In this document: piece by piece, positions 7,124-40,099 of the stretch | Layout: every line of letters starts with the position of its first letter | How positions within the stretch are numbered: the first letter of the stretch is position 1 | Source: Oscillospiraceae bacterium | GTDB lineage: Bacteria; Bacillota; Clostridia; Oscillospirales; Ruminococcaceae | DNA: 49,363 nt | Assembly: GCA_017399625.1 (NCBI GenBank) | Contig: JAFQBT010000139.1 | Coordinates: 1 to 49,363 of the forward strand | Direction: 5' to 3' | The notes under the pieces: generated by a model | The model's database searches: none | Told to the model about the DNA's origin: nothing | What the model saw: only the letters and a program-made list of their open reading frames with translations | Program-made: the position numbers and the translations under genes

Positions 7124-7154
7124 CTATAAAAAAACAAAAGATTGGAGGGGTAGC

Positions 7155-13177: not shown

Positions 13178-13219
13178 TGATTTTCTGAAAAACAGGATTC
13201 ATTCAGTTTAATCAAAAAA

Positions 13220-13246: not shown

Positions 13247-13266
13247 GCAGAAGAAAGGAGAAACCT

Positions 13267-14091: not shown

Positions 14092-14133
14092 TTTTTCTGA
14101 ACGAATATCTCTTTTGGTAAGGAGGTTTTTTTC

Positions 14134-17427: not shown

Positions 17428-17475
17428 TACAGGCAACCGAAACTGAAAGATCAATTTCTGAGGTGACTTTTGAAT

Positions 17476-18957: not shown

Positions 18958-20235
18958 ATGAAATTCGATAAATTCAAGCCGAAAGGTAAGAAAGAGCCGG
19001 AAAAGCTTGAAACTTACCTTCTTGCGGCGGATAACCCGGTCGGCAAAGAACAGCTGCGGCCGTTTTTCAAGCGAAAGCGGAGCGGCGAAGTCCTTACGAG
19101 GGAACAGGTCTTTGCAATAAAGCGCGGAAGAAAACTTCTCCGGAAGGAAATGCGCGCACAGGGCATGAAGCGGCGGATAGATTTTGAAATCACCGCCACG
19201 AACATGGGCCTTTATTTTGACCGGAACAAATTATTCTGGCCGTTCTTCCTCTGGCTTATAAGAGACAACACGGTTCTGAAAGTCCTTGCAACAACGGCGG
19301 TAATAACCACCGCGGTTACGGTTTCGGTTCCGGTTGTTGAATATATCCAGCAGATTGTTACGGAATATATTGAAAAAATTGTTGAACAGATCGTCCAGCA
19401 GCAGGTGGAAAAGGAAGTCGACCGATTTACCATCAGCCTTTCGGACGAAATGCTGAACTCCGGCTTCACCCTCAGCGAAACCATCGATTTTGAAAACGCT
19501 TCAACAAACCTTGTTGCGGCGGCGGTCGAAGGCGTTCCCTGTATCTCCATAAGGGACATCCCCCTCGACGTAAACGATTACGAAGGAAGATATCCGGATG
19601 ATTCGTTCTTCGCCTATACCTTCTATTGCCGCTATGAAAGCACCGTTTCCGAACCCATCGATTACGATTGGTCAATCAACATCACCCGTGAGGACGAGGT
19701 TGTTGTGGAAGATCCGGAAACCCTTGAGCAAAGGAGCTATTTTGTTTCCGATGCAATCTGGGTAATGGTCTTCGAGGATAACGAAATGCTTTTCTATGCA
19801 AAGGTCGGCGAGGACGGCGAAATCGAAGCGCTTCCCGCAAAGGATATCACCGACAGAGGATATGAAGGCGGACCGCACATTGACCATGCGAAGAGCCCGG
19901 AAGAGCAGTATGAAATTGTTCAGGAGGGGCATTACTTCGATTATTACCGGGTAAAGCCAATAAGCTACGTTTCGGAAACGGTTGTTGCAAAGGGCAGGAT
20001 GGAAAACGTATTGCCCTTCGATATAAGCGTTTTTGATCCGGAAGCGGAATTTGACCCGGAAAACCCCAACGGCATCCATAAATATACCGTTGTAATATGG
20101 CTCGAGGGCGATGACCCGGAATGCACCGATGCGCTCATCGGCGGCTCCATCGGAATGAACTTCAGCATCAAGTTTGCCGAAGACGAACCCGAGGAGGAAA
20201 CACCCGAAGAAGAAACTCCGGGCGAAGAAGGCTGA
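18958..20235 (+). CDS. Membrane-anchored extracellular protein with C-terminal WLEG motif
   Basis: A 425-residue protein with a basic, Lys/Arg-rich cytoplasmic N-terminus (about 1-90), a hydrophobic segment (about 92-125), a short amphipathic helix (VEYIQQIVTEYIEKIVEQIV) and an extracellular beta-rich domain (about 155-405). Near its end it reads VVIWLEGDDPEC and then NFSIKF. The same WLEGxDxxC motif ends the SipW-type proteins at 23405 and 29218, so this protein shares their fold but keeps an uncleaved anchor. The tail is EEETPEEETPGEEG. It may be the membrane base on which secreted subunits assemble. It follows the HD-GYP/EAL gene by 6 nt. Confidence 0.72.
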   Translation: MKFDKFKPKGKKEPEKLETYLLAADNPVGKEQLRPFFKRKRSGEVLTREQVFAIKRGRKLLRKEMRAQGMKRRIDFEITATNMGLYFDRNKLFWPFFLWLIRDNTVLKVLATTAVITTAVTVSVPVVEYIQQIVTEYIEKIVEQIVQQQVEKEVDRFTISLSDEMLNSGFTLSETIDFENASTNLVAAAVEGVPCISIRDIPLDVNDYEGRYPDDSFFAYTFYCRYESTVSEPIDYDWSINITREDEVVVEDPETLEQRSYFVSDAIWVMVFEDNEMLFYAKVGEDGEIEALPAKDITDRGYEGGPHIDHAKSPEEQYEIVQEGHYFDYYRVKPISYVSETVVAKGRMENVLPFDISVFDPEAEFDPENPNGIHKYTVVIWLEGDDPECTDALIGGSIGMNFSIKFAEDEPEEETPEEETPGEEG

Positions 20236-20618: not shown

Positions 20619-22961
20619 ATGGTAAGTAAATCTCATGCAAAGCGTCGCCAGGACATTAAAACCAAACTTATGGCCGCAATCGCGATGCTTCTTGTATCCT
20701 CCATCATGATGGTATCTTCCACCTATGCATGGTTCACCCTGTCTACCGCACCTGAGGTAACCGGTATCACAACGCAGGTTGGCGCTAACGGTAACCTCGA
20801 AATGGCATTGCTTCCTGCAGATGTCAATGGCACAAGCACCCTTGATGCTGAAGGTTACGGCATCACCTCCGACGTTAACAACTCCATGTATGACGGAAAC
20901 GGCGCACTTAGGGATAATATTAAAGCCGCAAACATCACCTGGGGTAACCTTGTTGACGTAAGCGATGCTTCCTACGGTCTGGATAAACTTAAACTTTATC
21001 CTGCTGCCCTCAATATTACAGGACAGAATACCGACGGAAACGACGTTATTGGTACTACCAATATTCTCAAAACTCCTGTTTACGGAGCAGACGGAAGAGT
21101 TATCGAAGTTACTCCCAACACTGTAGCAGGTACTCTTGCTCAGAACGGAGCGGCATTCTATGCTAACACTGAATATGGTGTTCGCGCAGTTGGTGTTGCT
21201 TCCGGTATGACCGAACGTCAGCTTGCTTTCTCCAGCGCAGCGGGCAACGCAAAAAGCTCGATGGAACAGGCAAGAACCGCAATCGTAAACTCTCTCAGAG
21301 CTAACGGTTCCGATATGGCAAACCTTGCTGTAAAACACGCTAACAACGGTGATGCAGAAGGTTACAGCAAAGCAGAAGTCGGCAAAGTTGTTACCGCAGT
21401 TAAAGACCTCAGAGCAGTTGTAAACCATGTTGACACCGCTTATAAAAATGCTGTTCTTGCTCTTGCTGCATCCGCATTGACCGGAACAGAAGACGTTGTT
21501 TACGAATATGTAAAAGGTCTTGTTGAAGCAGAAAGCTCCACCTTCCCGGGTGTTGCTGCTGCTATTACAAACGGAACCGGCCTTACCGAAGGCGCAACCA
21601 TTCCTGCTGAAATAAGCACCGCTCTCAACACCTATGTCAGCTATTACAACTCTCTCGAAAGCGCTGTTACTGCAGCAGAAGGAAATATCCCTGCAGGTTT
21701 TGATGCTGCTGCTGAAGATACAAAATACACTTGGGCTGATGTAAGAGCGGTAATGGACCCCCTTATGAACACTGAAGAAATGACCTTCAACGGCCTTACC
21801 ATTGATGAAGTCAAAGCTGATATTTCCGGATTCGCAAATTCTGTTTTGGCAAACAACAACAGCGTAACCCTTCTTATGAGCGACGGAAGCGGTGTTTATG
21901 AAACCCTTGCAGACCATGTCGGCGATTATAATGCAGATATCACCATTTCTGTTGTAGTTATCGAAGGCAGCGAGCCTATGTCCGTAAACGGTATTCTTAA
22001 AACCAAGAGCAATGTTGACGAAGCAGGCAATCCTTATGTTCAGGATTTCATCAATGTTGCAAAAGCAGGCGGCGCTCCCAGCAGCGGCAACGCAGCAGAG
22101 AACCCCATCACTGAATATTACGGATATATCATTGACCTTGCATTCCGTACCAACGCAGCAAACTCCAACCTTCTTATCCAGCAGGAAGGCGTTGACCGTA
22201 TTTATAGCGACAACACCGACGCAACCGCTGCAACAATGGGTCACGGCGCTTCCATGACTTTCAGCGCAACCGTTGGTTTCAGCGAAGCAAAAATGATCGA
22301 GCTTATGAAGCATATCAAAATCGTATTCTTCAGACCCGATAGCGGCGAAGTTGTAACCTATGCACAGCTTGATATGGCAAATGCTCAGCAGACTGCGGAA
22401 GGTATTACCGCAAAAATCATGCTCATCGGCGACGGTTCCTATGTAAAAGAAGCTTATAACGCACAGAGCGGCAAAACTTATTACACCAAAGAAACTGTTC
22501 CTACCGAGTACGGCCTTACCACCGATGCTGAAATTAATGAAGACACTACTTATTACACCAGAAGTGATGCAGAGCCTTATACTTATACCGAAGTAGATTC
22601 TCCTGTTGTAGAGGATATCGCAACTTACTATGTAGTAACCGCAAGCGAAGATAAATACACCGCAATTACCGGTGCTCCTGCAGATGGAGTTGATGTTTAT
22701 GTTCTCAGCGAAAAGACCGATATTATGCCTCTCCAGCAGAACACAATCGAACTTCTTTCCGTTCTTGTATATCTTGACGGTGAAACTGTTACCAACGCAG
22801 AAGTCGGTACCGGCACCACTTCCATGACCGGAACCATGAACCTCCAGTTCGCTTCCGACGCAACTCTTGACCCGATGGATTACGCGGCACTCAATCCGAA
22901 TCTTGCTCCCTCAACCCCCGCAACTCCCGGAAACGATGAAGGCGAAGGAGAAGGAAACTGA
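20619..22961 (+). CDS. SipW-dependent exported protein, candidate major fibre subunit
   Basis: A 780-residue protein. A basic start and hydrophobic helix ending TYAWFTLS form a SipW-type signal. Immediately after comes the shared strand motif APEVTGITTQVGANGNLEMAL, also recognisable in the proteins at 23405, 29218 and 35570. ANITWGNLVDVSDASYGLD (about 108-126) is matched closely by the 1489-residue protein. A long Ala-rich helical insert (about 200-400) follows. Near 615-700 are three YYT/YYV-type short repeats. The C-terminal motif VYLDGETVTN...MNLQF (about 716-745) corresponds to WLEG motifs in the others. The acidic Gly/Glu tail has no anchor. It is flanked by repeat-bearing spacers and followed by a strong stem-loop, as expected for an abundant subunit. 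No known family name can be assigned with certainty. Confidence 0.75.
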   Translation: MVSKSHAKRRQDIKTKLMAAIAMLLVSSIMMVSSTYAWFTLSTAPEVTGITTQVGANGNLEMALLPADVNGTSTLDAEGYGITSDVNNSMYDGNGALRDNIKAANITWGNLVDVSDASYGLDKLKLYPAALNITGQNTDGNDVIGTTNILKTPVYGADGRVIEVTPNTVAGTLAQNGAAFYANTEYGVRAVGVASGMTERQLAFSSAAGNAKSSMEQARTAIVNSLRANGSDMANLAVKHANNGDAEGYSKAEVGKVVTAVKDLRAVVNHVDTAYKNAVLALAASALTGTEDVVYEYVKGLVEAESSTFPGVAAAITNGTGLTEGATIPAEISTALNTYVSYYNSLESAVTAAEGNIPAGFDAAAEDTKYTWADVRAVMDPLMNTEEMTFNGLTIDEVKADISGFANSVLANNNSVTLLMSDGSGVYETLADHVGDYNADITISVVVIEGSEPMSVNGILKTKSNVDEAGNPYVQDFINVAKAGGAPSSGNAAENPITEYYGYIIDLAFRTNAANSNLLIQQEGVDRIYSDNTDATAATMGHGASMTFSATVGFSEAKMIELMKHIKIVFFRPDSGEVVTYAQLDMANAQQTAEGITAKIMLIGDGSYVKEAYNAQSGKTYYTKETVPTEYGLTTDAEINEDTTYYTRSDAEPYTYTEVDSPVVEDIATYYVVTASEDKYTAITGAPADGVDVYVLSEKTDIMPLQQNTIELLSVLVYLDGETVTNAEVGTGTTSMTGTMNLQFASDATLDPMDYAALNPNLAPSTPATPGNDEGEGEGN

Positions 22962-23011: not shown

Positions 23012-23043
23012 ATTCTCCGCTCCGGATTTCCGGAGCGGAGAAT
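23012..23043 (+). promoter_or_regulatory. Strong stem-loop after the 780-residue protein gene, no U-tract
   Basis: A 15-bp arm ATTCTCCGCTCCGGA pairs perfectly with its complement around a very short loop. The sequence after it on the + strand is CCCCAAAAAA, so it is not a normal terminator in this direction. On the - strand it would be followed by T-rich sequence, but no - strand gene is present. It may protect the upstream mRNA. Confidence 0.6.
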
Positions 23044-23081: not shown

Positions 23082-23389
23082 TGAAAAAAAGCCTCCCTTG
23101 TCAAAGGGAGGGGGACCGCGAAGCGGTGGAGGGATTCATTCCTCCAGCTGAGAAAAATGCGGAAAGGAAACATACACCTCATCTGACGCGGCATATGCCA
23201 AGCGGCACCTTCTCCTCAAGGAGAAGGCAAAATGCAAAGGGGAACCCGCAACTTTGATTAAATGAAAGATAAATATCCTTTATCTTTTATAAAAGAACGG
23301 AGAGGAAGCCCTCCGGGTTACTTGTTAATCCCTCTTTCGTCTTTTTGCGGCAAGCCGCAAAAATCCACCTTCCCCTCCGGGAAGGCAGA
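23082..23389. repeat. Dispersed palindromic repeats in the spacer
   Basis: Three repeat pieces: GCCTCCCTTGTCAAAGGGAGG through GGGATTC (about 23090-23138), CCTTCTCCTCAAGGAGAAGG (about 23209-23228), and AATCCCTCTTTCGTC with a TTTTTGCGGC/GCCGCAAAAA hairpin (about 23327-23385). Between them an AT-rich hairpin AAAGATAAA/TTTATCTTT (23265-23287) is followed by CTTTTATAAAAG. Confidence 0.7.
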
Positions 23390-23404
23390 GAAAGGAGAAC
23401 GCCG

Positions 23405-24487
23405 TTGGTAAAAAAAGAACACGTTAAAAAGAAGGCGAAGCGGACAATCATCTATTTCTATATGATTCTGATCCTGCTGGTGCTGACTGTAACGGCTTCA
23501 TATACATGGTTCAGCATTTCCCGAACGCCGAAGGTCAGTAACATGAACGTCTATATTACAACCCAGCCGGGACTCGAAATGTCCATCGATAAGGAAGAAT
23601 GGCTTCTCCAGCTGGATTTCTGGGAGGCGGTCAACGCAACCACCGAACAGAACCCGGATAAGGAACGCCCGGTTCTCCGTCCGGTAACCTGGTCGGAAGT
23701 GAACAAATGCTTCTATGCGGCGGCCTATGGCGCCGACGGAAGGCTGAAGCCTTACCGGGACTGGCACGTTCTTTCGGACGAACGCAACGCAAACAAGCAG
23801 AATTTTGAAGGATATTACATAAAAGCAACGGTTTTCATGCGAAGCGGACAGAATGCGGAAATAACCCTTTCTCCCGCGGTGGAAGTCAACGACGGAATCG
23901 ACGGTTCCGGAACCTATGTCCGGGGAATCCCGGTCTGGAACCCGGGTTATTACGTCGAGGAAGAGGATGACGACGGAAATATCCTCCATAAACTGGTCGG
24001 TTTCGGGCACGATAACTCCGGTCTCGGTGCCGAAAACGCGATACGCGTCGGTTTCCTTGTAACCCATCTCGTTCAGAGCGAGGAAGGGGAATATCTCCCG
24101 GATGAGGAAAGGGAACCGGAATTCTTCATCTATGAACCAAACTGCAACATCGGGCTTTCCGGCGAAAGGGAATATATTCCCACCCCGAGCATGGACGAAA
24201 CAGAAACCCTTGTTCCTCCGGAACGGCTGATTCTCCAGACCGCCACAACCTGGACCGAAGCTGACCCCATCGAAAACGGAGTGGTCATCCATACTTTCGG
24301 CGAACTTCTTGAACCGCCGACGATTTTTAAAATCGAAGCGGGCGAAATCGTCCAGGTGGATCTGTATTTCTGGCTCGAAGGGCAGGATATCGATTGTCTC
24401 AACAGCGGAAGCGAAGCCCAGATCCAGGCGAACCTCCAGTTCTCCGGAACAACCGAAAGCCAGAGCGGTTTTGTAAAAATTGAGTAA
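23405..24487 (+). CDS. SipW-dependent exported protein with WLEG motif
   Basis: A 360-residue protein. The start is TTG 23405, because AAAGGAG (23391-23397) lies 7 nt before it; the longer frame from 23345 would translate repeat DNA. The N-terminus is very basic, followed by a hydrophobic helix ending TASYTWFSISRTPKVS. This is the SipW-type pattern, then the shared strand ending PGLEMSI. The beta-rich body has ENAIRVGFLV, a string also seen as AAIRVGFLA in the protein at 29218. The C-terminal motif is YFWLEGQDIDC with LQFSG following. It has no cell-wall anchor. The SipW-like peptidase gene begins 76 nt downstream. Confidence 0.75.
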   Translation: MVKKEHVKKKAKRTIIYFYMILILLVLTVTASYTWFSISRTPKVSNMNVYITTQPGLEMSIDKEEWLLQLDFWEAVNATTEQNPDKERPVLRPVTWSEVNKCFYAAAYGADGRLKPYRDWHVLSDERNANKQNFEGYYIKATVFMRSGQNAEITLSPAVEVNDGIDGSGTYVRGIPVWNPGYYVEEEDDDGNILHKLVGFGHDNSGLGAENAIRVGFLVTHLVQSEEGEYLPDEEREPEFFIYEPNCNIGLSGEREYIPTPSMDETETLVPPERLILQTATTWTEADPIENGVVIHTFGELLEPPTIFKIEAGEIVQVDLYFWLEGQDIDCLNSGSEAQIQANLQFSGTTESQSGFVKIE

Positions 24488-24503: not shown

Positions 24504-24533
24504 TTGCAAACGCAGGTATTGCTTTTATATAAA
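24504..24533 (+). promoter_or_regulatory. Candidate internal promoter before the first SipW gene
   Basis: TTGCAA (24504-24509) and TATAAA (24528-24533) are separated by 18 bp, in the only AT-rich gap between 23405 and 31343. It could drive the peptidase, AAA+ and coiled-coil genes separately from the upstream subunits. Confidence 0.4.
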
Positions 24534-24563
24534 TGTCTTTTTAAGAAGGGAGCGACCCAAAAA

Positions 24564-25550
24564 ATGAAAAAAGAGAAAGAACAAATAGCAGCACCCGTTT
24601 CTCCGGAACAGGAAGAGGAAATAGTTGTTGTTGAGGAAGAAAGCAAAGGCAAAAAAGCCCTGAACATGGTTGTAAACATTGTTCTCGTTGTTGCAATCGC
24701 CCTCGCAGCAGTCTGCACCTATGCTTCCTATGTTTCAACTTCCGGAAACGGCGTTCCGAACATCTTCGGAATTCGCATCTTCTCTATCCAGACCGAATCC
24801 ATGTACCCCACCCTTTTGCCCGGCGACCTTATTTTTGATACCGGCGTCAAGGATCCGTCCGAACTGAGAAGAGACGACATCATTACCTATTGGACCGTTA
24901 TCAACGGCGAACGCGTTCTCAACACCCATAGAGTTCACGAAATTTATGATGGCGGCGGCTATCTTATTTTCTCCACCAAGGGTGATAACAACACCTCGGC
25001 CGACCCCCTTACCGTTCATGAATCCGAAATCGTCGGTAAATATTCCTTCCGCGTCCCCGGCGTCGGAAAGGTTTTCGATTATCTCCAGACGAGCACCGGC
25101 TTCCTTATTGTAATCGTAATACCTGTATTCCTTTTCTTCCTGTTCCATCTTGTCCAGTTCTTCCGCGTTCTCTTCGAATATCAGAACGTAAAGAACCGCA
25201 TCAAATTTGAGCAGGAACGCGGCCGCACCGAAGACCTTATCGATCAGGAACAGAAACGCCAGTCCGAAGCCCAGGCTGCGGCAAGAGCAAAAATGGAAGA
25301 AGAAATCCGCGAAAGACTCAGGGCGGAAATCATGGCTTCCATGGCGGCCCAGGCAGCGGCTGCTCCCGCTCCCGCACCGGCAGAACCTGCTCCCGCTCCC
25401 GCACCGAAGGAAGAACCCACTCCCGCTGTAACGGAGGAAAAACCGGCAGAAGAACCTGCTGAGGAAGCTCCCGCAGAGGAAATCGTTGCGGAAGAAGTTC
25501 CGGAAGAGGAACCGGCAGAAGAAAAAACGGAGGAAACCGCAGAAGTCTGA
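24564..25550 (+). CDS. sipW: SipW-like signal peptidase (ER/archaeal S26B type) with long acidic tail
   Basis: A 328-residue enzyme with a cytoplasmic acidic start, a membrane helix (about 33-58), a catalytic domain, a second membrane helix (about 180-205) and a long cytoplasmic tail. The nucleophile is Ser79 (TESMYPTLLPGD). The general base is His122 (LNTHRVHE) rather than Lys, and Asp141 lies in KGDNN. These mark the SipW/ER class, which in Bacillus matures TasA and TapA. The tail has a Glu/Arg coiled coil (about 215-270) and then Ala-Pro and Pro-Glu-Ala repeats (about 275-328), absent from Bacillus SipW. ATG 24564 is chosen because the upstream in-frame ATG (24504) overlaps the promoter-like region. 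Its likely substrates are the neighbouring exported proteins. Confidence 0.9.
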   Translation: MKKEKEQIAAPVSPEQEEEIVVVEEESKGKKALNMVVNIVLVVAIALAAVCTYASYVSTSGNGVPNIFGIRIFSIQTESMYPTLLPGDLIFDTGVKDPSELRRDDIITYWTVINGERVLNTHRVHEIYDGGGYLIFSTKGDNNTSADPLTVHESEIVGKYSFRVPGVGKVFDYLQTSTGFLIVIVIPVFLFFLFHLVQFFRVLFEYQNVKNRIKFEQERGRTEDLIDQEQKRQSEAQAAARAKMEEEIRERLRAEIMASMAAQAAAAPAPAPAEPAPAPAPKEEPTPAVTEEKPAEEPAEEAPAEEIVAEEVPEEEPAEEKTEETAEV

Positions 25551-25582: not shown

Positions 25583-27151
25583 ATGAATAATTTCTTTAAC
25601 TATTTTACCGAGGATATCGGACAGGTTTTTCAGGCTTTTGTTGAAGTGCTCAGCGCAATTTTCAATTTTCTGAACTACCTTTTCAATTTCCCCATGCGAA
25701 TGAACATTATCAAGGAGCACAGCGAAAGTTTCAGCACCACCGACTGGGTAATGCTGCTCATCGCCAACATCATGATAATCGCCGTTTGCTGCCTTATCAT
25801 ATATTTCATCGGAAAGCTTATCCGGAAAATCTTTTTCGGCGGAATTTCCAAAAGGGAATACGAAAGAATGTCTGCCCAGGTGCGGACTCTCCAGCGTGAC
25901 CTTCTCCGTTCCAACTACGAAAAAGATAAAATCCTTGCAATGACCATGGGAAATCCGGAACTTCCCCCGGAAGAGGAGGAAGAAAAGAAGGAAGAAGGCG
26001 AAGAGGAAAGCACCGAGCTTGTTCCTTCCAACAGAAACACCTTCGATTCTCCCTGTGTTGATCCTTCGGACAGCCGTTTCTTCCGTCTTACCTGTGTTGA
26101 TAACTACTATAAAACCGAATACGTAAAGCCGGAATATGATAACGAGATGAACCTTGAGCAGATCTGCGAAAGATTCCGCAATTTTGCCGCATCCCAGCTC
26201 AAGCTTTATTATGACCTTGATATGATGAGATTCTTCCTTGCTTCCATGGGAACTTCCCGAATCATCATCCTCCAGGGTATTTCCGGTACCGGTAAAACCT
26301 CCCTTCCTTATGCATTCGGTAAATTTGTCCAGAAGGACACAACCGTTGTTTCCGTCCAGCCTTCCTGGCGTGAAAGAACGGAGCTTTACGGATATTTCAA
26401 CGAATTTACAAAGCGTTATGCAGAAACGGAATTTTTGCAGGCAATTTATGAATGCAACTATTTCCGCGATCCCCATATTGTAATCCTGGACGAAATGAAC
26501 ATCGCCCGTGTTGAATATTATTTTGCGGAAATGCTCTCCATTCTCGAAATGCCCCTTCAGGAGGAATGGAAGGTCGATATCGTAACCGCGGTCTGGGATA
26601 ACGACCCCTGCCTTATCGACGGCGGTAAGGTCCAGATCACCAACAACGTCTGGATCGTCGGCACCATCAACAACGACGACTCCACCTTCGCCGTTGCGGA
26701 TAAAGTTTACGACCGTGCAATCCCGATCGACCTTGACAGCAGAGCGGATCCTTTCGAATGCGAAATGACCGATCCGGTCTATATTTCCACCGACCGCCTC
26801 AACGAACTTTTCGATGAAGCAAAGAGAAACTATCCCGTTTCCCAGGAAATCATGGATAAGCTCGAACTTGTAAACGCATATCTTATCAAGAACTTCCGCC
26901 TTGCTTTCGGTAACCGAATCATGAAGCAGATCGGCGACTTTGTTCCCTGCTTCATCGGATGCGGCGGAAGCGAAATCCAGGCAATCGACTTCATCGTTGC
27001 AAAAAAAGTTCTCCGTAAGTTCGAATCCCTCAGCCTCGGCTTTATGAAAGACGAGCTCACCAAATTCAGCAACTATCTGGATAAAGTTTTCGGCAAAAAC
27101 CAGATGGCAATCTGCAAGGACTATATTGAACAGCTGAAGAAAAACAACTGA
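25583..27151 (+). CDS. Membrane-anchored McrB-like AAA+ ATPase
   Basis: A 522-residue protein with one N-terminal membrane helix (about 52-76), a charged coiled coil and Glu-rich linker (about 90-150), then an AAA+ domain of the McrB/MoxR type. Walker A is GISGTGKTS (Gly232-Thr239 core) and Walker B is VILDEMN (Asp303, Glu304). The DEMNxARxExYFxxML pattern is typical of McrB-type enzymes. Sensor 1 is GTINNDD and an Arg-finger-like DRA follows. Known McrB proteins drive DNA restriction with McrC. This one is tethered to the membrane, lacks a DNA-binding N-domain and lies 27 nt before a DUF2357-like gene inside a secretion cluster. A remodelling or motor role in surface assembly is inferred. 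Confidence 0.85.
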   Translation: MNNFFNYFTEDIGQVFQAFVEVLSAIFNFLNYLFNFPMRMNIIKEHSESFSTTDWVMLLIANIMIIAVCCLIIYFIGKLIRKIFFGGISKREYERMSAQVRTLQRDLLRSNYEKDKILAMTMGNPELPPEEEEEKKEEGEEESTELVPSNRNTFDSPCVDPSDSRFFRLTCVDNYYKTEYVKPEYDNEMNLEQICERFRNFAASQLKLYYDLDMMRFFLASMGTSRIIILQGISGTGKTSLPYAFGKFVQKDTTVVSVQPSWRERTELYGYFNEFTKRYAETEFLQAIYECNYFRDPHIVILDEMNIARVEYYFAEMLSILEMPLQEEWKVDIVTAVWDNDPCLIDGGKVQITNNVWIVGTINNDDSTFAVADKVYDRAIPIDLDSRADPFECEMTDPVYISTDRLNELFDEAKRNYPVSQEIMDKLELVNAYLIKNFRLAFGNRIMKQIGDFVPCFIGCGGSEIQAIDFIVAKKVLRKFESLSLGFMKDELTKFSNYLDKVFGKNQMAICKDYIEQLKKNN

Positions 27152-27178
27152 TAAAATTCTTCATGAAAGGAGCCGCTC

Positions 27179-29164
27179 ATGGCTGCATCCACTAAAAAAA
27201 CCGCCGGAAAAACCGGAGCAAAAAAGAAGGATTCCTATATTGATCCTCTTTACGAAAAATACACGAAAAGTGTCATAAGAGCTCTTGGAAGCACGGAGTT
27301 TTACGAATTTTTTATGGACGCCGTTTCAAGAGCGGACAATAAATTCCAGTTTTCCAACAGGAAGATGGAAAAAACCGTTGACCTCAACTGGGTCGATGCA
27401 ATCGAAGAAACCCTTCCCGCAATACAGAACATTATTTCGAACCCGAGGAACGTTATCCATGAGGAAGAACTCATCGTAAACGTTGCAAACGCAAAAAAAG
27501 CGGGTTCCGATGTTGTTCGCCATCTTGCCCAGCACGCAAGCCTTGTTGAGAAATACGATTACGATACCGGCGAAGTCCGCCCAAGCAAACTTATGCAGAA
27601 ATACAGGGAGGACAGTACCCATCTTTATGAAAACCGCCTTGTTTTCACGGCGCTTGAAACCGCTTTCCAGTTTGTAAAAATCCGCCACGATGCGCTTTTT
27701 GCCGCCATGAGCGATGAATTCGGCGCAAAGCTGAAGCTTGATTCAACAATGGAAACCTCGACGGAACTTGTTCATTTTGATATGTATATGCATATCAAGG
27801 AGGTTGACAGCGCCATCGAAACGGACGATAAAAACGGCCATGTCTTCGACAGAATCTCGAAGATTTACCGAATTTTAATGGTGCTCATGCAGAGCCAGTT
27901 TGCCCAGCATATGGAAAAACTCCCGAGGGTAAAAGGTACGCTCACAAAGACCAACGTGCTCAAAAAGAACCCGGACTACCGAAAGGTAATGGCGCTGCTC
28001 GAATATCTCCGCGGCTATGACCAGATCGGTTATACCATCCGCGTTGTTGAGCAGAACCCGGAAATCGACGGCATTATGGAACGGGATATTTATCATAATA
28101 TCATGTTCAACTACCTCATCCTCAAGGGCTATCTTGAGGACGAAAGGGACCGCCGGATCCCCGCTCCCGCAAAGACGAGAAAGCGCATGCTCAAGCCAAA
28201 ATTCGTCAAGGAAATCATCGAGGAACTCACCGAGGATTACGACCTTCCGGATGTGGAAATCCGCAAGGTGCTCATCGAGGAGCTCACCAAGGAACAGCTC
28301 ATGCTCGAGGAGGAAGCGGAACGCAGAAGGCTTGTTGAAGAGCAGGAGAGAAGGAAGCTCGAGGAGGAGGAAAGACTCCGTCTTGAGGCCGAAGCAGAAG
28401 CCGAAAGACTCCGCAAGGAAGCCGAAGCCGAAGCGGAAAGAATCCGCCTTGAGGAAGCCGCAGAAAAGGAACGCCTTTTTGCGGAAAGAATGGAGCGCGA
28501 AGCGGAAGAAAGACGCAGAAGCAGAATCTTCCAGGAAGAGCTTACATATTTTGCCGAGCATCTTGAGGAGCGCATAGAGCTCCGCGAAGCCGCCGTTGCA
28601 AAGCGCCTTGAGGAAATGAAAGCCTTTGAGGAAGCACAGCGGAAAATTGAAGAAGAAAAACAGCGGAAGATCGAGGAGGAGGAAAGACTCCGCCGCGAAA
28701 AAGAAGAGGAAGAACAGCGCAATCAGAAAATCCTTGTTGAAAAACAGGCGGAAGAACAGCGCAGAACCGAAATCTTCCAGAAAGAAATCGACCGCTTCAA
28801 CGAAAATCTTGAGCAGCGCAAAGCCGCAAGAGAATCCGCCGCGGAAAAACTGCTCAAAGCAAAACAGGACTTCGAGGAAACCGCAAGGCTTATGGAAGAA
28901 GCCGAGCAGGCAAAAATCGAAGAGGAAATCCGCAGAAGAGAGGAAAGGGAAAAACTCCGCCTCGAAAAGGAACAGAAGAAGGAACAGGACGAAAAAGACG
29001 ACGTTCTTTCTGCGCCTTTCCGGGAGGAAATTGTTGTTTTCCTCGATTCCCTGCCGAAGAGAATTGCCCTTCGGGAAGCGGAAACAAGAAGAATCCTTGC
29101 GGAAAAGGAGCGGCGTGAAATCGAACGCCAGCGCCGTCTTGCCGCAAGAGCCGCAAGAAGATAA
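27179..29164 (+). CDS. DUF2357-like protein with long coiled coil, partner of the AAA+ ATPase
   Basis: A 661-residue cytoplasmic protein. The N-terminal half (about 15-340) resembles the DUF2357 domain found with McrB-type ATPases, with PRNVIHEEELIVNVANAKKA and the hallmark-like YENRLVFTALE; I see no PD-(D/E)xK nuclease motif. From about 370 it is an uninterrupted Glu/Arg/Lys coiled coil. Inside this lie three repeats (about 450-495, 531-575, 611-655) with the pattern F-x-x-E-(I/L)-x-x-F-x-x-x-L-x-x-R-x-x-x-R-E, each followed by a charged helix. The Arg-rich end is RRLAARAARR. AAAGGAG precedes the ATG and the ATPase gene ends 27 nt before, so the two probably work as a pair. The DUF2357 relation is by eye and moderate. 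Confidence 0.72.
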   Translation: MAASTKKTAGKTGAKKKDSYIDPLYEKYTKSVIRALGSTEFYEFFMDAVSRADNKFQFSNRKMEKTVDLNWVDAIEETLPAIQNIISNPRNVIHEEELIVNVANAKKAGSDVVRHLAQHASLVEKYDYDTGEVRPSKLMQKYREDSTHLYENRLVFTALETAFQFVKIRHDALFAAMSDEFGAKLKLDSTMETSTELVHFDMYMHIKEVDSAIETDDKNGHVFDRISKIYRILMVLMQSQFAQHMEKLPRVKGTLTKTNVLKKNPDYRKVMALLEYLRGYDQIGYTIRVVEQNPEIDGIMERDIYHNIMFNYLILKGYLEDERDRRIPAPAKTRKRMLKPKFVKEIIEELTEDYDLPDVEIRKVLIEELTKEQLMLEEEAERRRLVEEQERRKLEEEERLRLEAEAEAERLRKEAEAEAERIRLEEAAEKERLFAERMEREAEERRRSRIFQEELTYFAEHLEERIELREAAVAKRLEEMKAFEEAQRKIEEEKQRKIEEEERLRREKEEEEQRNQKILVEKQAEEQRRTEIFQKEIDRFNENLEQRKAARESAAEKLLKAKQDFEETARLMEEAEQAKIEEEIRRREEREKLRLEKEQKKEQDEKDDVLSAPFREEIVVFLDSLPKRIALREAETRRILAEKERREIERQRRLAARAARR

Positions 29165-29217: not shown

Positions 29218-30573
29218 ATGAATAAGATTCAGGTAAAGCTTATTGCAGTTGCCCTCGCGCTTACTCTTTCGGTTTCGGTGGTAATAATGTCGTCCTATGC
29301 ATGGATGGTGCTTTCGTCCAATCCTGCCGCAACCGGAATCCAGGTTGTTATCGGCGGCGGAAACACGATTCTTATTGCGCCGAACATTGAAACGGAGGAC
29401 GGACACCATATTCCGGGACATTTTTCCGACAGCATAAATTTCGGAATGTATAAGGATTACGATTATCTCAAAGAGGTCGGCGGGCTTACTCCCGTTTCAA
29501 CAAGCGACGGAATCGATTGGTTCGTCGCGGAGGGAAAGCATGATCCCTTCCTTGAGCACGCAAACCTTCCGAAATACATTACTTCCGAAGACGAAAACGG
29601 AAACGAAACAAAAACCGAAAACCCGCTTATCCGGGAGGGAAACTTCATCTATCTGGATTTCTGGGTTGTTGCGCCCGCCGGGGATTATAATCTCCGGATT
29701 TCCACCGGAACAAAGGATTCCAACGGAGGAGATTCTTCCGGCGGAAGCTTTGTAATCGATCTTCCGGTACCGGTTCTTGATACGGAGGGGGAAGTTGTTA
29801 CCGCAACCCTTACCGAACCGGAGGGAAGCGCCGCCGCGGCGATCCGCGTCGGATTCCTTGCAAACCCGGTGATGCTCACGGACGATACCATGGAGCATTA
29901 TATGAACAGCCCCTATGAGGACGACCGCTTCACTTCGCTCCGGGGTTCATATTTCGAACCGAACACCGGTTCCTATCATTCGGATCTGGATAATTTTGTG
30001 ATTTATGAACCGAATGCGGATTACCATCCGGGAAAAAGCGAACTTGAAGGAACCTATGTCCAGACAAAGCCCCTTGTTCTCGGAGAAAACGGCGAAGGCG
30101 TTCCGAACGGGGATATCTGGAACCAGCTTACCGTTCAGCTTAAAAGCGACTGGATGGTAAATGCGGAATACAGCAGACTTTACCTTGAAGAGCATCTCAA
30201 TGCCGCATTGATAAAGAATGAGGACTGGAAAGATCTTCCCGAAAAGCAGATCATGGCGGAATTTTTGCAGAAAAGCCTTCAGGGACAGTTTTCCCAATAT
30301 GTCACCAAGGGAGAATTTATAAAATATTCCGCAGCGGAACAAGGTTCTCTCCGTGCGTATGCAGAATCGGAAGAGAATATTTCCGCCGAACAGCTTTCAA
30401 ATCTCACGAAGGCGGGAGCAACGGAAGACGTTAAAATAATTGAACTCGAAAGAAACATTCCCCAGCGTATCCGGATGTTCATCTGGCTTGAAGGGCAGGA
30501 TATGGATTGCGCCGCAAGCGCAAAATCCGCTTCCTTCGCAGTTAACATCGAATTTGCCGGCGGAACTGAATAA
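29218..30573 (+). CDS. SipW-dependent exported protein with WLEG motif
   Basis: A 451-residue protein with a short signal ending MSSYAWMVLS, then the shared strand TGIQVVIGGGNTILIAP. A beta-rich body contains FIYLDFWVVAP, AAIRVGFLANP and FVIYEPNADYHPG; the protein at 23405 has IRVGFLV and FIYEPN at matching places. The C-terminal motif FIWLEGQDMDC with NIEFAGG matches the protein at 23405 and the membrane protein at 18958. A helical insert of about 100 residues (about 310-405) is unique to it. No anchor is present. GGGGGA precedes the ATG. It lies between the DUF2357-like gene and the second SipW-like gene, 8 nt before the latter. Confidence 0.75.
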   Translation: MNKIQVKLIAVALALTLSVSVVIMSSYAWMVLSSNPAATGIQVVIGGGNTILIAPNIETEDGHHIPGHFSDSINFGMYKDYDYLKEVGGLTPVSTSDGIDWFVAEGKHDPFLEHANLPKYITSEDENGNETKTENPLIREGNFIYLDFWVVAPAGDYNLRISTGTKDSNGGDSSGGSFVIDLPVPVLDTEGEVVTATLTEPEGSAAAAIRVGFLANPVMLTDDTMEHYMNSPYEDDRFTSLRGSYFEPNTGSYHSDLDNFVIYEPNADYHPGKSELEGTYVQTKPLVLGENGEGVPNGDIWNQLTVQLKSDWMVNAEYSRLYLEEHLNAALIKNEDWKDLPEKQIMAEFLQKSLQGQFSQYVTKGEFIKYSAAEQGSLRAYAESEENISAEQLSNLTKAGATEDVKIIELERNIPQRIRMFIWLEGQDMDCAASAKSASFAVNIEFAGGTE

Positions 30574-30581: not shown

Positions 30582-31343
30582 ATGAACAACGAAACGAAAG
30601 AAAACGGCGACGTTCGCCTTCACCGCTGGATAAGCACCGTTGTAACGGTTCTTCTGGTGCTTGCCGTGGTGTTCTGCCTGTATTCAGTGGTGCAGGTTCT
30701 GAGCAAGGGATACGTCAATATCGGCGGATTCATGATGTTCCGGGTCGTAACCGGAAGTATGGAACCGACGATGCCAACAGGAACTCTTCTCATAACAAGG
30801 GAAGTTGATATTGAAACCGTTGCGCTCGATGATATCGTCTGTTTCCGGACAAGGGTTTCGGAAATCTGGGGAAAAATCGTTACGCACAGGGTCGTTGATA
30901 TAATGGAAACCGCGGAGGGGATCCTTCTTGAAACAAAGGGGGATGCAAACCTTGCTTCGGATATCTATTATGTTGACAGTTCGAATTTTATCGGCAAAGT
31001 TATATGGCATTCGGGAGATGGCAACGTTTTGGCTGACTTAGTATCACTTTTCACAAGCAAAATCGGTTTTTTGGGCTGCATTGCCTTGCCGAGCCTTATT
31101 CTTGCGGCGCTTATTCTTAAAAACAGCGTCGGAAGCATCCGCCATGAACTTATGATGGTCATGGAGATGGAAAGACAGCAGAAAATCGCCGCAGAGCAGA
31201 ATGCCGGCGCTTTTGAAATAACCGAGGAAGAATATAACGAAATGTACGAAAGAATTCGTAAGGAACTTATTGAGGAGCTGACGCATTTTGATGAAATTCA
31301 ACCTGAACAAGGAGAATGTTCTGAAAATTCTGAAACTGAATAA
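30582..31343 (+). CDS. sipW: Second SipW-like signal peptidase (S26B type)
   Basis: A 253-residue enzyme with an N-terminal membrane helix (about 17-40), an extracellular catalytic domain, a second membrane helix (about 160-182) and an acidic helical cytoplasmic tail (about 185-253). The nucleophile is Ser59 (TGSMEPTMPTG) and the general base is His102 (VTHRVVD). KGDAN supplies the conserved Asp. It is shorter than the enzyme at 24564 and has no Pro-Ala tail. The Shine-Dalgarno sequence is weak, so translation may be coupled to the gene ending 8 nt upstream. Its 3' end overlaps the following exported-protein gene by about 53 nt. Two such enzymes in one cluster suggest divided substrate sets. 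Confidence 0.9.
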   Translation: MNNETKENGDVRLHRWISTVVTVLLVLAVVFCLYSVVQVLSKGYVNIGGFMMFRVVTGSMEPTMPTGTLLITREVDIETVALDDIVCFRTRVSEIWGKIVTHRVVDIMETAEGILLETKGDANLASDIYYVDSSNFIGKVIWHSGDGNVLADLVSLFTSKIGFLGCIALPSLILAALILKNSVGSIRHELMMVMEMERQQKIAAEQNAGAFEITEEEYNEMYERIRKELIEELTHFDEIQPEQGECSENSETE

Positions 31344-33411
31344 TGTGCCTTCGGAAAATTCCGGTTCCCCGGAACTTGTTAAAGCAAGAAGGAATATCTA
31401 TCTCCAGGCGGGGCTTGCCGTTCTGACGATAGTTCTGACCCTTGTAATCATCTTTTCGATGACTGCGGCATGGTACACGAACATTGTTGAAACAAGCGGA
31501 CTTGTTTTTGAGGTGGAATCCTGGGGATATTCCGGCGAAGTTCTGATTTCGGACAAAGTTGTTGCCGCCGCACCCGGCGACAGCGGAGTTGTCGGCCTTA
31601 CCGTAAGCGGCGCAAACGAGGAAAGTTCCGAAATTCTCGACGTAAAGGTCAACGTGACGAAGGACGCCATGAGGGACGAAATGCAGCAGAGAATGTTCTT
31701 CTATGTTGACACCGCGGCAACCGAAAACGGCGAAAACGTCGAAAGGGTATATCTCAGCAGCCTTAAGGATTATTCCTACACCCTTTTCAGCGGCGGTTCC
31801 ATCCTTATGAACGACGATTTTTCAAACGTTCCTGCGCTTAAATGGCAGTGGGTCTATGACGTTCTCGGATACTACGTTATTGCGGATTATAATGCTCAGA
31901 ACGAACTTGAGGTGACCGAATATATCCGCCCCATAGAATATGATTTTGATAAGGCGACTTTTAAGGAAACAACCCAGACTGTTACCGTTGACGAAACAGA
32001 AAAAGATATCAATACTTATGAAATCGCAACCGTTGACGGAACCCTTACTCCGGAAGAGTTCCTTGAGGAATTTTCGAAAAAAGACGGTTTTGAAGGAACG
32101 CTGAATATAAAGACTCCCGAAGAAGAGACTGATACCGAAGATAATCCCTTTGCCGAACCGGTTACAATCGGCGGTAAAGAATATTATAAAATCGGCGAAG
32201 CTGCAAACGGAAGAGGAATCTATGCCCGCCTTTGTACCTATGGCGAAATTGAAGAGGAGACCCGATATGATACATATCTGGGAGAGCTTGCCAAGAAAAA
32301 AGCGGACGGAGAAACCGATGAAACCGGTAGTTATTCTCTTCTGACTTTTGGAGCAACGGTGGGCGTTACCGTTGAGCAGAAGAAGATTGAAACCACCGTT
32401 GTAAGCGATGTTACGGGATTTAAAAACGCAATTGAAAACGGCGGAGCAATTGCGCTTGCCGCGGATATCGAAATTGGCGAACAGATTTCTGTTCCCGCCG
32501 GAGAGGAAATCTGGATTGACCTTGGCGGAAATACCATCACAAGCGGTGTAACCGGAACCGGCGGCGCCATTGTTGCAGAAGAAGGAAGTTCCCTTACAGT
32601 TGTGAACGGAAAACTTGAGGGCAACGGAGGAAAAACCGGAAGAGGAATTGAAGCTATCGGCGCGGAAGTGAATATCAGTAATGTGGATATAACCGGTTTT
32701 GACAGAGGAATTAATATAAGCGACGAAAAAAGCCTGGATACGGATTCCACGGTGCGCGTTTCCGGATGCACTGTTGACGGCGTAACCTGTGCGGTTTTTG
32801 TTTCCGGAAACGGAACGGGTACCGGTAATAAAACGCAGCTTATTGTTGATAAATGCACTCTTACATCGGAGTTGTACGGAATAGTTGGAAACGGTTCCGA
32901 CAACAGAGTAGGAACAGATATACAAGTTCTCAACAGTACCGTGAAAAGCGAAGGTGCGGGAATTTATCATCCCCAGAGGGACAGCACCCTTACGGTTTAT
33001 AACAGCACCGTTGAAGGCTATACCGGAATTGCAATCAAGGGCGGATATCTTGAGGTTATAAACTCCGAAATTATCGGTAACGGAGATATGCTTGAGACCC
33101 CTGAAGGCAGCAACAGCGGTTCTGCTACCACCGGTGACGCAATTTATATTGAAAACAACTATGAGAAAAACAGCATAAGCGTTGTTATAAGGGAAGAAGA
33201 AAATTCCGGCACCGCGGAGCTTAAAGCAACAAAAATCGAAAGTAAAAAGGACCACGCAGTCCGGATTTTTGACGAAACCAGAAAGAACGTGAAAATCACA
33301 ATCTATGGCGGAACTTTCAGCGGAATAGGTAAAATCAATGATGAATGGCTTGCGGAAGGCATGAGAACGGATGGAACCAACGGCGCATATGAGGTAGTTC
33401 CGATTGCCTGA
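31291..33411 (+). CDS. SipW-dependent exported protein with beta-helix domain
   Basis: A 706-residue protein. The basic N-terminus and hydrophobic helix (about 40-60) end FSMTAAWYTNIVETSG, a SipW-type signal. The N-terminal beta domain (about 60-140) has GDSGVVGLTVSG. A linker with acidic stretches follows. Residues about 375-680 form a right-handed parallel beta-helix of the pectate-lyase type: repeated short strands with ladder-like LTVVNGKLEG, VNISNVDITGF, LIVDKCTLTS, IQVLNSTVKS, LTVYNSTVEG and LEVINSEIIG. Similar folds serve as adhesins or polysaccharide-active domains; catalytic residues are not evident. ATG 31291 is chosen over TTG 31288; both follow GAGGAG (31272-31277). The start overlaps the peptidase gene, implying coupling. 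Confidence 0.75.
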   Translation: MKFNLNKENVLKILKLNNVPSENSGSPELVKARRNIYLQAGLAVLTIVLTLVIIFSMTAAWYTNIVETSGLVFEVESWGYSGEVLISDKVVAAAPGDSGVVGLTVSGANEESSEILDVKVNVTKDAMRDEMQQRMFFYVDTAATENGENVERVYLSSLKDYSYTLFSGGSILMNDDFSNVPALKWQWVYDVLGYYVIADYNAQNELEVTEYIRPIEYDFDKATFKETTQTVTVDETEKDINTYEIATVDGTLTPEEFLEEFSKKDGFEGTLNIKTPEEETDTEDNPFAEPVTIGGKEYYKIGEAANGRGIYARLCTYGEIEEETRYDTYLGELAKKKADGETDETGSYSLLTFGATVGVTVEQKKIETTVVSDVTGFKNAIENGGAIALAADIEIGEQISVPAGEEIWIDLGGNTITSGVTGTGGAIVAEEGSSLTVVNGKLEGNGGKTGRGIEAIGAEVNISNVDITGFDRGINISDEKSLDTDSTVRVSGCTVDGVTCAVFVSGNGTGTGNKTQLIVDKCTLTSELYGIVGNGSDNRVGTDIQVLNSTVKSEGAGIYHPQRDSTLTVYNSTVEGYTGIAIKGGYLEVINSEIIGNGDMLETPEGSNSGSATTGDAIYIENNYEKNSISVVIREEENSGTAELKATKIESKKDHAVRIFDETRKNVKITIYGGTFSGIGKINDEWLAEGMRTDGTNGAYEVVPIA

Positions 33412-33456: not shown

Positions 33457-34068
33457 ATGGACCATTGGAAAAAGAATAGTTCCCTCCGGTATTTTGCGGG
33501 TCTTGCCTTGCTGATGGTGCCGGTTATCCTGATGATAATCGCATCGCCGGCTTTTGCCCGGTACCAAAAGGAAAAAATCGGGAACATTACCTTTAACGTA
33601 AAGGAACCGGGGCAGATTTGTTTTGTAAATATCGAGAACAACCAGCTTGAAGTAATTGATAATGAAAACAACAAATTTGTCTGGACAGAATCCGAAGGAA
33701 CAAAAAGTCTTGAAATTTCCGTTGCCAACGGAAGCGGAAACAGCGATTATTCAGAATATGACCAGAACGTCACCGTAATGCTTGTTGCGGGGCTTGGGCT
33801 TTCGGTTGAGGACGGCGAAACCGGAATCACCCTTGAGCACGGGGGAAACATCTATTCGGCAAAGGCTGAAAAAACAATTCCCGGTTCCGAATCCTATACG
33901 GCCTTCGGCGAAAGCTGGGTAATAACCTTTTTTGATAAAGCCGGAAACGAATTCAGCGGCGTTCTTGAAGGTGGAAAGCTTGATACCTTCACCGTTAAAA
34001 TAACGGTGGAAAATGCTTCGATTATTGAAAATACGGTGATATCACCTTTTGCAAAAATTATTAATTAA
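33457..34068 (+). CDS. Small SipW-type exported protein (TasA/camelysin-like)
   Basis: A 203-residue protein with a signal helix ending SPAFARYQKE. The AxAR-Y junction is the pattern I associate with SipW-type subunits in Clostridia. A single beta-sandwich-like domain follows (VMLVAGLGL, ITLEHGGNIYSAKA, FTVKITVENA). Its size fits the TasA/camelysin class of small fibre-forming proteins. It has no anchor and no cysteine pairs beyond one Cys. AAAGGAG lies about 13 nt before the ATG. It ends 20 nt before the next gene, which shares the ARY junction. A role as minor fibre subunit or initiator is inferred. Confidence 0.7.
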   Translation: MDHWKKNSSLRYFAGLALLMVPVILMIIASPAFARYQKEKIGNITFNVKEPGQICFVNIENNQLEVIDNENNKFVWTESEGTKSLEISVANGSGNSDYSEYDQNVTVMLVAGLGLSVEDGETGITLEHGGNIYSAKAEKTIPGSESYTAFGESWVITFFDKAGNEFSGVLEGGKLDTFTVKITVENASIIENTVISPFAKIIN

Positions 34069-34088: not shown

Positions 34089-35573
34089 ATGTTAAAAAGA
34101 AGAACAGCGGCATATTGCGTTCTCCTTGCAATGTTCATTATTGCGGGCGCGGTTTTCGGTTCTGTCGGAAAGGCGCAGGCAAGATATAACAGCATGATTT
34201 TCTTCAGCACCGTTGTTGAAGCGGAAAAAACCGAAATTTCAAGCGATATTCTTGCAAAGGAAAACGAAGCGGGAGTTATCCTGATGCTCGGGGATGTTCC
34301 GGAGGCAAAAACTTTTGAATTTTCCCTTTCCGCTTCCGGCGGAACCGCGGAGGAAACAATAAGCTGGGAATATCCGAAGGATTACGTTGTAATCTATGCA
34401 AAGCTGAGCCAGAAGACCGCTGCTCCGGAAACGGAAACTGCGGAAGCGGCAGAGGCGGCAGAAGCTGAGGAAACCGTAACGGATATAGATTCCGGCGATA
34501 AGATAAAAATCGCCGAAGGAACCGAAACAAAAGTTATAATGGAAGTTGTTCCGATCGAAAATGCGGTCACAACAAAAGCGGAGGAAATCATTGTTAATGT
34601 GGGCGGACTTTCCGGAACAGTAATCTTCGAAATTCCGCCGGATGAAGAGGAAAACGTTTCCGGCGGGGAATCGGATAAGGTCCAGACCGGAACAGGAGAA
34701 ACGGAATCCGGCGAGGGCGAAACCGGCGGTTCCGTCGGCGGAACATCGGGAACGGTTGAAGCTCCGGCGGGGAAAATCGATATTCTCCCGAATTTCGAAC
34801 CGGATGGAATGCTTCCGATGAAAGTCGATATTCCGGTCGGCGCCCATTACGTCAGAATCGGAACTTATGAAGGCGAAAAACTTGCTCCGCTTCCGGCTGG
34901 AACAAGAATAAGCCTTAACGAGGGAAAAGATTTCTATATCATTCCGGAAAACGCTGTTCCGGAATTTCCGATATCAAGCATAACCTGTTCGGAGAATAAA
35001 TATTCGATTCTTCTGGATTTCGGAAGGGCGGAAATAACTCCCGCCGAAGCGCTTGCCTTTGGGGTCGAAGCTTTTTCCGAAAGCGGAAAAATCGCGGTTT
35101 TGAAGGGCGAATCCCTTCCGGATATTTCCGGAGCGGGAATTTCGAAAATTGAAACCGGGGTCGAAGAACTCGAAATCGGCGAAGGAGAAGAGGAAATAAT
35201 TCCGGAGGAACCGGAATATTACGTTCTTTCCGAAGGCGGAACGATTCGGATTTCGTTCCCGGAGGAATGGAGGAATTTCGCGAAAAGCGGATATTCGATC
35301 CAGATGCTCAGAACCGCGGAAAACGAAACAGTCGGTTACAGCAACGTTGACATCCTTGTCAACAGCCTCTGGGCCGAATATGCCGAAGAGGAAGGAAACG
35401 CGGATCTCCTCATAAAGGTCGGCGAAATTCTTCCGCCGGCGGGAAAATACCAGGCGATTTTGCAATGGGAATTCAATGGAATTTGTTTTTATAAAAAGCA
35501 GATCACATTTTTTATAAATTATTCCACCGACATTTATTCAACTTTTGAGAGTCAGGGGGTTGCCGGAAAATGA
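34089..35573 (+). CDS. SipW-type exported protein with repetitive acidic linker
   Basis: A 494-residue protein. The signal helix ends GKAQARYNSM, similar to the protein at 33457. The beta-rich N-terminal domain (about 35-110) is followed by an Ala/Glu run (TAEAAEAAEAEE, about 115-130), a second beta segment and a Gly/Ser/Glu/Thr-rich linker (about 200-235). Further beta domains extend to the C-terminus, with RISLNEGKDFYIIPENAVP and GTIRISFPEEWRNF. No anchor is seen. The stop overlaps the start of the 1489-residue gene (ATGA), so the two products are probably made in fixed ratio. I do not recognise the domains beyond the general beta-sandwich pattern. Confidence 0.68.
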   Translation: MLKRRTAAYCVLLAMFIIAGAVFGSVGKAQARYNSMIFFSTVVEAEKTEISSDILAKENEAGVILMLGDVPEAKTFEFSLSASGGTAEETISWEYPKDYVVIYAKLSQKTAAPETETAEAAEAAEAEETVTDIDSGDKIKIAEGTETKVIMEVVPIENAVTTKAEEIIVNVGGLSGTVIFEIPPDEEENVSGGESDKVQTGTGETESGEGETGGSVGGTSGTVEAPAGKIDILPNFEPDGMLPMKVDIPVGAHYVRIGTYEGEKLAPLPAGTRISLNEGKDFYIIPENAVPEFPISSITCSENKYSILLDFGRAEITPAEALAFGVEAFSESGKIAVLKGESLPDISGAGISKIETGVEELEIGEGEEEIIPEEPEYYVLSEGGTIRISFPEEWRNFAKSGYSIQMLRTAENETVGYSNVDILVNSLWAEYAEEEGNADLLIKVGEILPPAGKYQAILQWEFNGICFYKKQITFFINYSTDIYSTFESQGVAGK

Positions 35574-40039: not shown

Positions 40040-40051
40040 TATGAATTGAGA

Positions 40052-40075
40052 CCGGTCCCCGAAACCGGGGACCGG
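40052..40075 (+). promoter_or_regulatory. GC-rich stem-loop after the 1489-residue protein gene, no U-tract
   Basis: CCGGTCCCC (40052-40060) pairs perfectly with GGGGACCGG (40067-40075), loop GAAACC. It is followed by CAAAGCC and a GGAGGTGA ribosome-binding site, so read-through is likely. It is similar in type to the hairpins at 13220 and 23012. Confidence 0.6.
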
Positions 40076-40099
40076 CAAAGCCATGGAGGTGAGATTTTT

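Follow-up and report, generated by a model that had tools for sequence, protein, structure and literature searches.

We analysed a 49,363-nucleotide stretch of DNA from an Oscillospiraceae bacterium (contig JAFQBT010000139.1; hereafter the window), a complete contig of a 2.1-Mb genome that is 87% complete. Two adjacent plus-strand genes encode a McrB-like AAA+ NTPase with an N-terminal transmembrane (TM) anchor (25583-27151) and a protein containing DUF2357, the N-domain of McrC (27179-29164). The pair is flanked by genes for two endoplasmic reticulum (ER)-type, SipW-like signal peptidases, and several neighboring products resemble exported proteins. A preliminary description of the window had placed these two open reading frames (ORFs), 27 nt apart, between SipW-type genes and their apparent substrates; the coordinates were reproduced, and the flanking peptidases matched TIGR02228. 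The same description regarded the pair as an undescribed system, a claim that could not be kept because such a class has already been named CoCoPALM by Bell et al. (eLife 2024, PMC11090510), in three main-text sentences that defer its description. The module encoded here is real and strongly conserved, and it falls into this CoCoPALM-type class, which is named but barely described.

The AAA gene is present in a single copy in the window's genome, and full-length or near-full-length orthologues were found in 18 of a sample of 150 relatives, the window's own genome included. A scan of GTDB genomes gave at least 595 pattern matches, at least 569 of them relatives, and we analysed the best 80 loci together with those of the 18 relatives. 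The two sets (98 loci) share at least three contigs; duplicates were kept, and the 98-locus counts and 116-sequence motif counts given below still include them. The genomes G019 and G032, with weak AAA matches to other McrB-like proteins that lack the partner, were excluded from the AAA-positive relatives. The co-occurrence described below would be no weaker if G019 were included.

The AAA protein (522 amino acids) is predicted from its hydropathy to have a TM helix (residues 58-76; 25754-25810), followed by a charged helix-like linker, and at least one TM segment was present in all 95 AAA orthologues longer than 480 residues. Walker A (GISGTGKT, residues 232-239; 26276-26299), Walker B (LDEMN, residues 302-306; 26486-26500) and the NxD signature (NNDD, residues 363-366; 26669-26680) are invariant in the 18 aligned orthologues, which confirms the earlier view of a membrane-tethered AAA+ protein with intact Walker motifs. 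Among 116 AAA sequences, the G..G.GK[ST] pattern was found in all 116, Walker B read LDEMN in 112 and LDELN in 1, with 3 not matching the pattern, and the signature was NNDD in 115 and NTDD in 1. The features of McrB-like AAA+ proteins, Walker A and B, the sensor Asn and homology to McrB, are all present. The AAA profile had significant PDB matches exclusively to McrB (6hz4, 6ut6 and 7vsr; best E value, 5e-6). Of 21 outgroup relatives, 19 carry NxDE and 1 NIDQ, and no motif was found in the last. The protein probably belongs to the NxD clade, an assignment that fits the NxDE of the next relatives, with NxxD also possible by spacing because HMMER aligns NNDD without gaps to the E. coli NTAD. 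No FtsB/DivIC family was found among the Pfam matches of 18 AAA members at an E value of 0.1, direct homology to FtsB not having been compared. At one locus (L075:10001-11587), the AAA gene is split into two ORFs (10001-10855 and 10913-11587), owing to a frameshift in the metagenome-assembled genome (MAG) or because the gene is broken.

The partner (661 amino acids) has no TM segment. Plain hmmscan assigned no family to it, and a permissive genome search identified DUF2357 (PF09823; 27296-27706) above the curated cut-off, at 27.0 versus 23.3 bits, in line with the McrB/DUF2357-like pair of the preliminary description; with hmmscan, nine of the 17 orthologues matched DUF2357 at E values of up to 1 (best, 1.5e-13). 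The position of the McrC nuclease is occupied by an E/R/K/A-rich tail (28229-29161) that resembles a coiled coil by composition, the last 311 residues of the protein comprising 88 E, 52 R, 34 A, 30 L and 26 K. None of the 86 unfused partner tails contained a crude PD-(D/E)xK pattern, a sequence-level result that agrees with the earlier report of a partner without visible nuclease, and no nuclease family was shown for 17 members of the partner family. The tail after DUF2357 has a median length of 306 amino acids, contig-cut tails included, and measures merely 43 to 59 amino acids at six loci (L080, L116, L138, L084, L086 and L129) where the gene pair is still kept. McrBC is a type IV restriction enzyme. 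McrB itself is a GTPase, and the module that the preliminary description called ATP-driven may use ATP or another nucleotide. The pair shares with E. coli McrBC the McrB AAA+ core (6hz4) and the DUF2357 domain of McrC, but it differs by the absence of a detectable nuclease, by an added membrane anchor and by NNDD in place of NTAD.

DUF2357 follows the AAA gene at 78/78 assessable loci of the 80 from GTDB and at 17/17 assessable loci of the 18 from relatives, and at an E value of 1e-5 the DUF2357 partner was detected in all AAA-positive genomes but G127 and G133 (16/18). The association of the two genes is more than chance, since they remain neighbors even in orthologues with approximately 44% AAA identity. 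AAA and DUF2357 distances are correlated over 88 loci (r = 0.91), a value that shared ancestry alone would raise.

The first signal peptidase (24504-25550, plus strand) has a long C-terminal tail past its last TM segment and matched TIGR02228 at 1e-25 and NF046067 at 3e-28; the corresponding values for the second (30582-31343, plus strand) were 6e-23 and 1e-22. Both score above the TIGR02228 cut-off and under that of the SipW model NF046067 itself, and the catalytic Ser and His were kept in all 156 SipW homologues. We found a SipW gene at 78/80 GTDB loci and at 18/18 loci of relatives; a lack of recurrent association, which the preliminary description had named as a refuting outcome, was not observed. 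SipW lies within 1.5 kb upstream of the pair at 63/76 GTDB loci and 16/16 loci of relatives, and it is fused to DUF2357 or within 2.5 kb downstream at 54/67 and 17/17, respectively. In the window's genus, SipW scored above the cut-off in 6/6 AAA-positive and in 0/9 AAA-negative genomes.

At ten Ruminococcus-like loci (L051, L062, L102, L107, L121, L133, L135, L136, L139 and L141), DUF2357, the coil and a SipW-type peptidase are joined in a single ORF, in which the peptidase Ser and His lie after the coil, between two TM segments. The fusion at L051 matched the NCBIfam SipW model at 2.5e-27, and that of R. albus KH2T6 (L121) contains Pfam DUF2357 and Peptidase_S26 both above cut-off. On the AAA tree, nine fused loci all lie within a single Ruminococcus-like clade without forming one branch; the fusion state needs at least six changes, an overcount because some rows without a partner on the contig were scored as unfused. 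The tree omitted L044, L045 and L050 (contigs shared with L063, L065 and L128), L211 and L213 (treated as duplicates of L085 and L073) and one row dropped by the program. Nothing else in the data argues as strongly for a joint function of the pair and SipW as these DUF2357-SipW fusions. They might also reflect a scaffold, in which a cytosolic patch built from the coils does no more than position SipW and the export site and NTP hydrolysis serves to assemble the patch. The long tails that generally follow DUF2357 fit such a role as well as the fusions do, but the six loci with very short tails retain the pair and the NTPase motifs are near-invariant, and we consider a scaffold very improbable.

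The pair belongs to a same-strand gene run (16537-40798) with intergenic gaps no longer than 53 nt, apart from a single 383-nt gap between 20619-22961 and 23345-24487. The N-termini encoded by several genes of the run show a hydrophobic helix and then (S/T)(Y/F)AW(F/L/M), the expected place of SipW-type cleavage. Probable exported proteins are encoded on the plus strand at 20619-22961 (780 amino acids, TM segment then TYAWF), 23345-24487 (380 amino acids, SYTWF, C-terminal WLEGQDIDC, start codon uncertain), 29218-30573 (451 amino acids, SYAWM, C-terminal WLEGQDMDC), 31288-33411 (707 amino acids, TAAWY past a hydrophobic segment, start codon uncertain) and 35570-40039 (1489 amino acids, SFAWL past a hydrophobic segment). 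Two other plus-strand genes of the run, for proteins of 203 (33457-34068) and 494 amino acids (34089-35573), show no SipW-type signal by pattern and have homologues at 15/98 and 9/98 loci, window included. A membrane-anchored protein (18958-20235, plus strand; TM 106-124) has a C-terminal WLEGxDxxC stretch in common with the exported proteins, and it aligned with their family by hhalign (97.5%, E value of 6e-12 over 49 columns). Its homologues occur at 80/98 loci, window included, and we propose that it is a base or anchor subunit.

Across the 98 loci, SipW-type signals were detected in 189 of 1156 same-strand genes, whereas shuffled N-termini gave 8 of 1156 and ORFs on the opposite strand 9 of 212; the shuffled control had one start per protein and the real proteins also further Met starts, which slightly favors the real set. 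By pattern, a C-terminal WLEGxDxDC was present in 111 proteins from 77 loci. A profile of the exported proteins, built from AAA neighbors, matched 18/18 AAA-positive genomes and 2/132 other relatives (G019 and G129; Fisher test, 2e-21), and among the 150 relatives this family tracks AAA more closely than SipW does. We also looked for TasA-like or known pilin substrates. The exported family had no match to solved structures, TasA, pilins or the SipW-signal model TIGR04088, as judged from sequence comparisons, and these candidates were rejected.

The anchored protein is directly preceded by the gene of an HD/EAL-like protein (17470-18951), which matched HD_5 at 3e-12 and EAL at 27.3 bits, under the Pfam cut-off. 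Its homologues were found at 18/98 loci, using gene calls that omitted the window's own copy, and EAL matched 6 of 131 scanned neighbor proteins, so that control by cyclic-di-GMP is possible. Such a protein next to the anchored subunit would suit a regulator, that is, an AAA/DUF2357 switch in the membrane that responds to a signal or to the state of the envelope and toggles SipW cleavage without contributing mechanically to export or assembly. The SipW fusions and the tight linkage fit control equally well. No observation argues specifically against a regulator. However, the exported family follows AAA more closely than SipW does, and AAA+ hexamers usually perform mechanical work, and we consider a regulator unlikely.

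AAA orthologues of the 18 positive relatives represent 11 genera and 7 families, and their presence is patchy even within the window's genus (6/15 genomes). The best 80 GTDB loci come from Oscillospiraceae, Lachnospiraceae, Ruminococcus (R. albus and R. flavefaciens), Anaerosporobacter and one 'Bacilli' MAG, and isolates with the system include Ruminococcus albus KH2T6, R. flavefaciens YRD2003 and Anaerosporobacter faecicola. Among the matches listed, the nearest named records were Oscillospiraceae MAGs from ruminant guts. In a sample of 391 genomes of the class, there were 33 AAA matches at 1e-10, 21 of them with E values below 1e-100. A sample of 398 genomes of the phylum gave 54 matches, solely the window's own genome being below 1e-40; the relatives found there carry NxDE and match the AAA core only, mostly from about residue 190 on. 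The two samples indicate that the orthologous system is largely confined to its own class.

The McrB/McrC ancestry raises the question of defense, either by a nuclease-less CoCoNuT-like module or by an abortive-infection system, located beside the surface operon or acting through it. The best PADLOC match of the AAA protein is the candidate defense protein PDC-M26A (1e-40), and the NxD motif and coils are common to the present pair and to CoCoNuT or PDC-M26A systems; loss of the McrC nuclease is also frequent in CoCoNuTs (PMC11090510). Nevertheless, the nuclease-less CoCoNuTs described there are always paired with HEPN or another predicted nuclease, whereas here none was detected in the partner and no recurrent nuclease was found among the scanned neighbors (131 of 148 proteins; 13 of the 20 selected loci, with L103 covered in part). 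Among the best 25 of 81 PADLOC families, none matched more than 2 of these 131 proteins, and 19 of the 25 were GajB-type UvrD helicase models with one match each. No match covering 80% of the AAA protein was found among 72,556 records of plasmids and 50,697 of phages; matches to the AAA core only were found in 13 plasmid and 2 phage records. As defense would also leave the SipW fusions and the exported family unexplained, it appears improbable.

According to the main text of Bell et al. (PMC11090510), CoCoPALM systems have an NxD McrB-like NTPase fused to an FtsB-like TM and coiled-coil domain, a coiled-coil McrC homologue and a link to genes of the signal peptidase family, the NxD signature being usually followed by D or E. 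The loci described here have in common with them the NxD McrB-like NTPase, the TM segment and the signal peptidase linkage, and the E/R/K-rich partner tail may, by its composition, correspond to the coiled coil. The term 'pilus' used by these authors is not supported by any pilin match here. We found no work on CoCoPALM in the open-licence literature beyond Bell et al. and its preprint, judging other papers that came up under the name by their titles, and no open-licence paper in which SipW occurs together with DUF2357. As far as the open literature shows, what is new relative to the main text of Bell et al. is the SipW/ER type of the peptidases with their invariant Ser and His, the DUF2357-SipW fusions, the WLEGxDxDC exported family, the AAA-DUF2357-AAA relatives described below and the survey itself.

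We favor, with a probability of about 0.6, the interpretation that this CoCoPALM-type system is a disarmed restriction core turned into a membrane machine, driven by NTP, through which surface proteins are exported or assembled in a SipW-dependent manner. Our model of how it works follows McrBC and the DUF2357-SipW fusions. The AAA protein would form a hexamer at the cytosolic face, onto which DUF2357 would dock and stimulate hydrolysis as in McrBC, and the coil of the DUF2357 protein would connect the AAA motor with SipW on its cytosolic side. In this way SipW would be gathered or gated by the machine, with exported precursors held by their N-terminal helix. Precursors would be cleaved near (S/T)(Y/F)AW(F/L/M), in step with their assembly onto the TM-anchored base protein, and the end product would be a surface fiber or layer.

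Several observations weigh against this export or assembly machine. There is no SipW gene just upstream at 13/76 loci and none within 2.5 kb downstream at 13/67. Of the 13 loci without an upstream SipW, 12 have a downstream one; the exception, L100 (21.7 kb, with AAA in mid-contig), has the pair and no SipW at an E value of 1e-5. SipW scored above the cut-off in 53/150 relatives, of which 35 have no AAA, indicating that SipW export is generally independent of AAA. Six of the ten fusions carry an additional weak hydrophobic segment near residue 600, which makes the membrane side of DUF2357 ambiguous in these proteins. The exported-protein profile, given its origin, favors co-occurrence, and some of its matches are limited to the signal region (G118 and G136). 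The word 'fiber' is a guess, since the exported family matches no solved structure, TasA or SipW-signal model, and the PDC-M26A match of the AAA protein points toward defense. Finally, the C. perfringens sipW-bsaABCRSD operon yields the BsaA polymer with no such pair in its description (PMC7395162). A dedicated ER-type signal peptidase beside exported substrates is common to our loci, to SipW-TasA/TapA of B. subtilis and to SipW-BsaA, whose substrates form polymers in the latter two; neither of these is described with an AAA/DUF2357 pair, and the proteins found here match neither TasA structures nor TIGR04088.

More distant relatives were examined in 17 class-level neighborhoods and in three further ones that served as phylum-level outgroups. 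SipW was present in 10/17 class-level neighborhoods, and the seven AAA loci without it (L202 to L207 and L221) also count against the export or assembly machine. On the tree, SipW-free AAA copies form two neighboring basal clades, not established as one. Four of these loci (L202, L203, L204 and L206) have AAA-DUF2357-AAA triads in which both AAA copies have TM segments, and L205 has one AAA-DUF2357 pair and the remnant of a second. At the two loci tested, L204 and L206, the large membrane protein encoded next contains a transglutaminase core (3e-21 and 8e-22) and shows weak similarity to AgI/II-C2; the L204 locus follows rplQ, and rpoA is also adjacent. These data hint that the membrane and surface contexts of AAA/DUF2357 extend beyond SipW.

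Other features of the window touch on transcription and on its remaining genes. The 383-nt gap of the gene run contains a 14-pair terminator-like hairpin on the minus strand (23012-23043), the longest found, and given this hairpin the run may be made as two transcripts. Terminator-like matches in the window were above chance (50, versus 30.1 +/- 6.5 in shuffles), and promoter-like matches were at the level of chance (22, versus 20.1 +/- 3.7). Control by a known riboswitch was rejected, as neither the window nor 7 other loci had a match around the operon that exceeded the Rfam gathering scores. The run ends with an Lgt-like (prolipoprotein diacylglyceryl transferase) gene (40046-40798), whose score is far under the NCBIfam equivalog cut-offs. 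A separate sortase/pilin-like cluster (6548-15401) encodes a VWA and SpaA protein, an LPXTG pilin, two sortase-like ORFs and its own bacterial-type signal peptidase I, and a tmRNA gene (RF00023), its 5' end cut off, lies at the start of the contig (1-260).

The loss of the nuclease, the membrane anchor and the fusion to a signal peptidase suggest that a defense NTPase was converted into envelope machinery, in a class for which no function is described in the open literature searched. In its broadest form, the disarmed McrBC core would be the motor of a dedicated export and assembly machine that gut Clostridia use for a new family of surface polymers; it would be in physical contact with SipW and, with the AAA-DUF2357-AAA relatives found beside transglutaminase proteins, part of a class of NTP-driven envelope machines derived from restriction enzymes. 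We advance this broader proposal tentatively and consider it somewhat doubtful; our confidence in it fell slightly because the transglutaminase link comes from the two loci tested, L204 and L206, and the relatives do not clearly form one clade. If the export or assembly machine is real, SipW-dependent export in these gut bacteria would be powered or gated from the cytosol, a feature absent from the known SipW-TasA picture.

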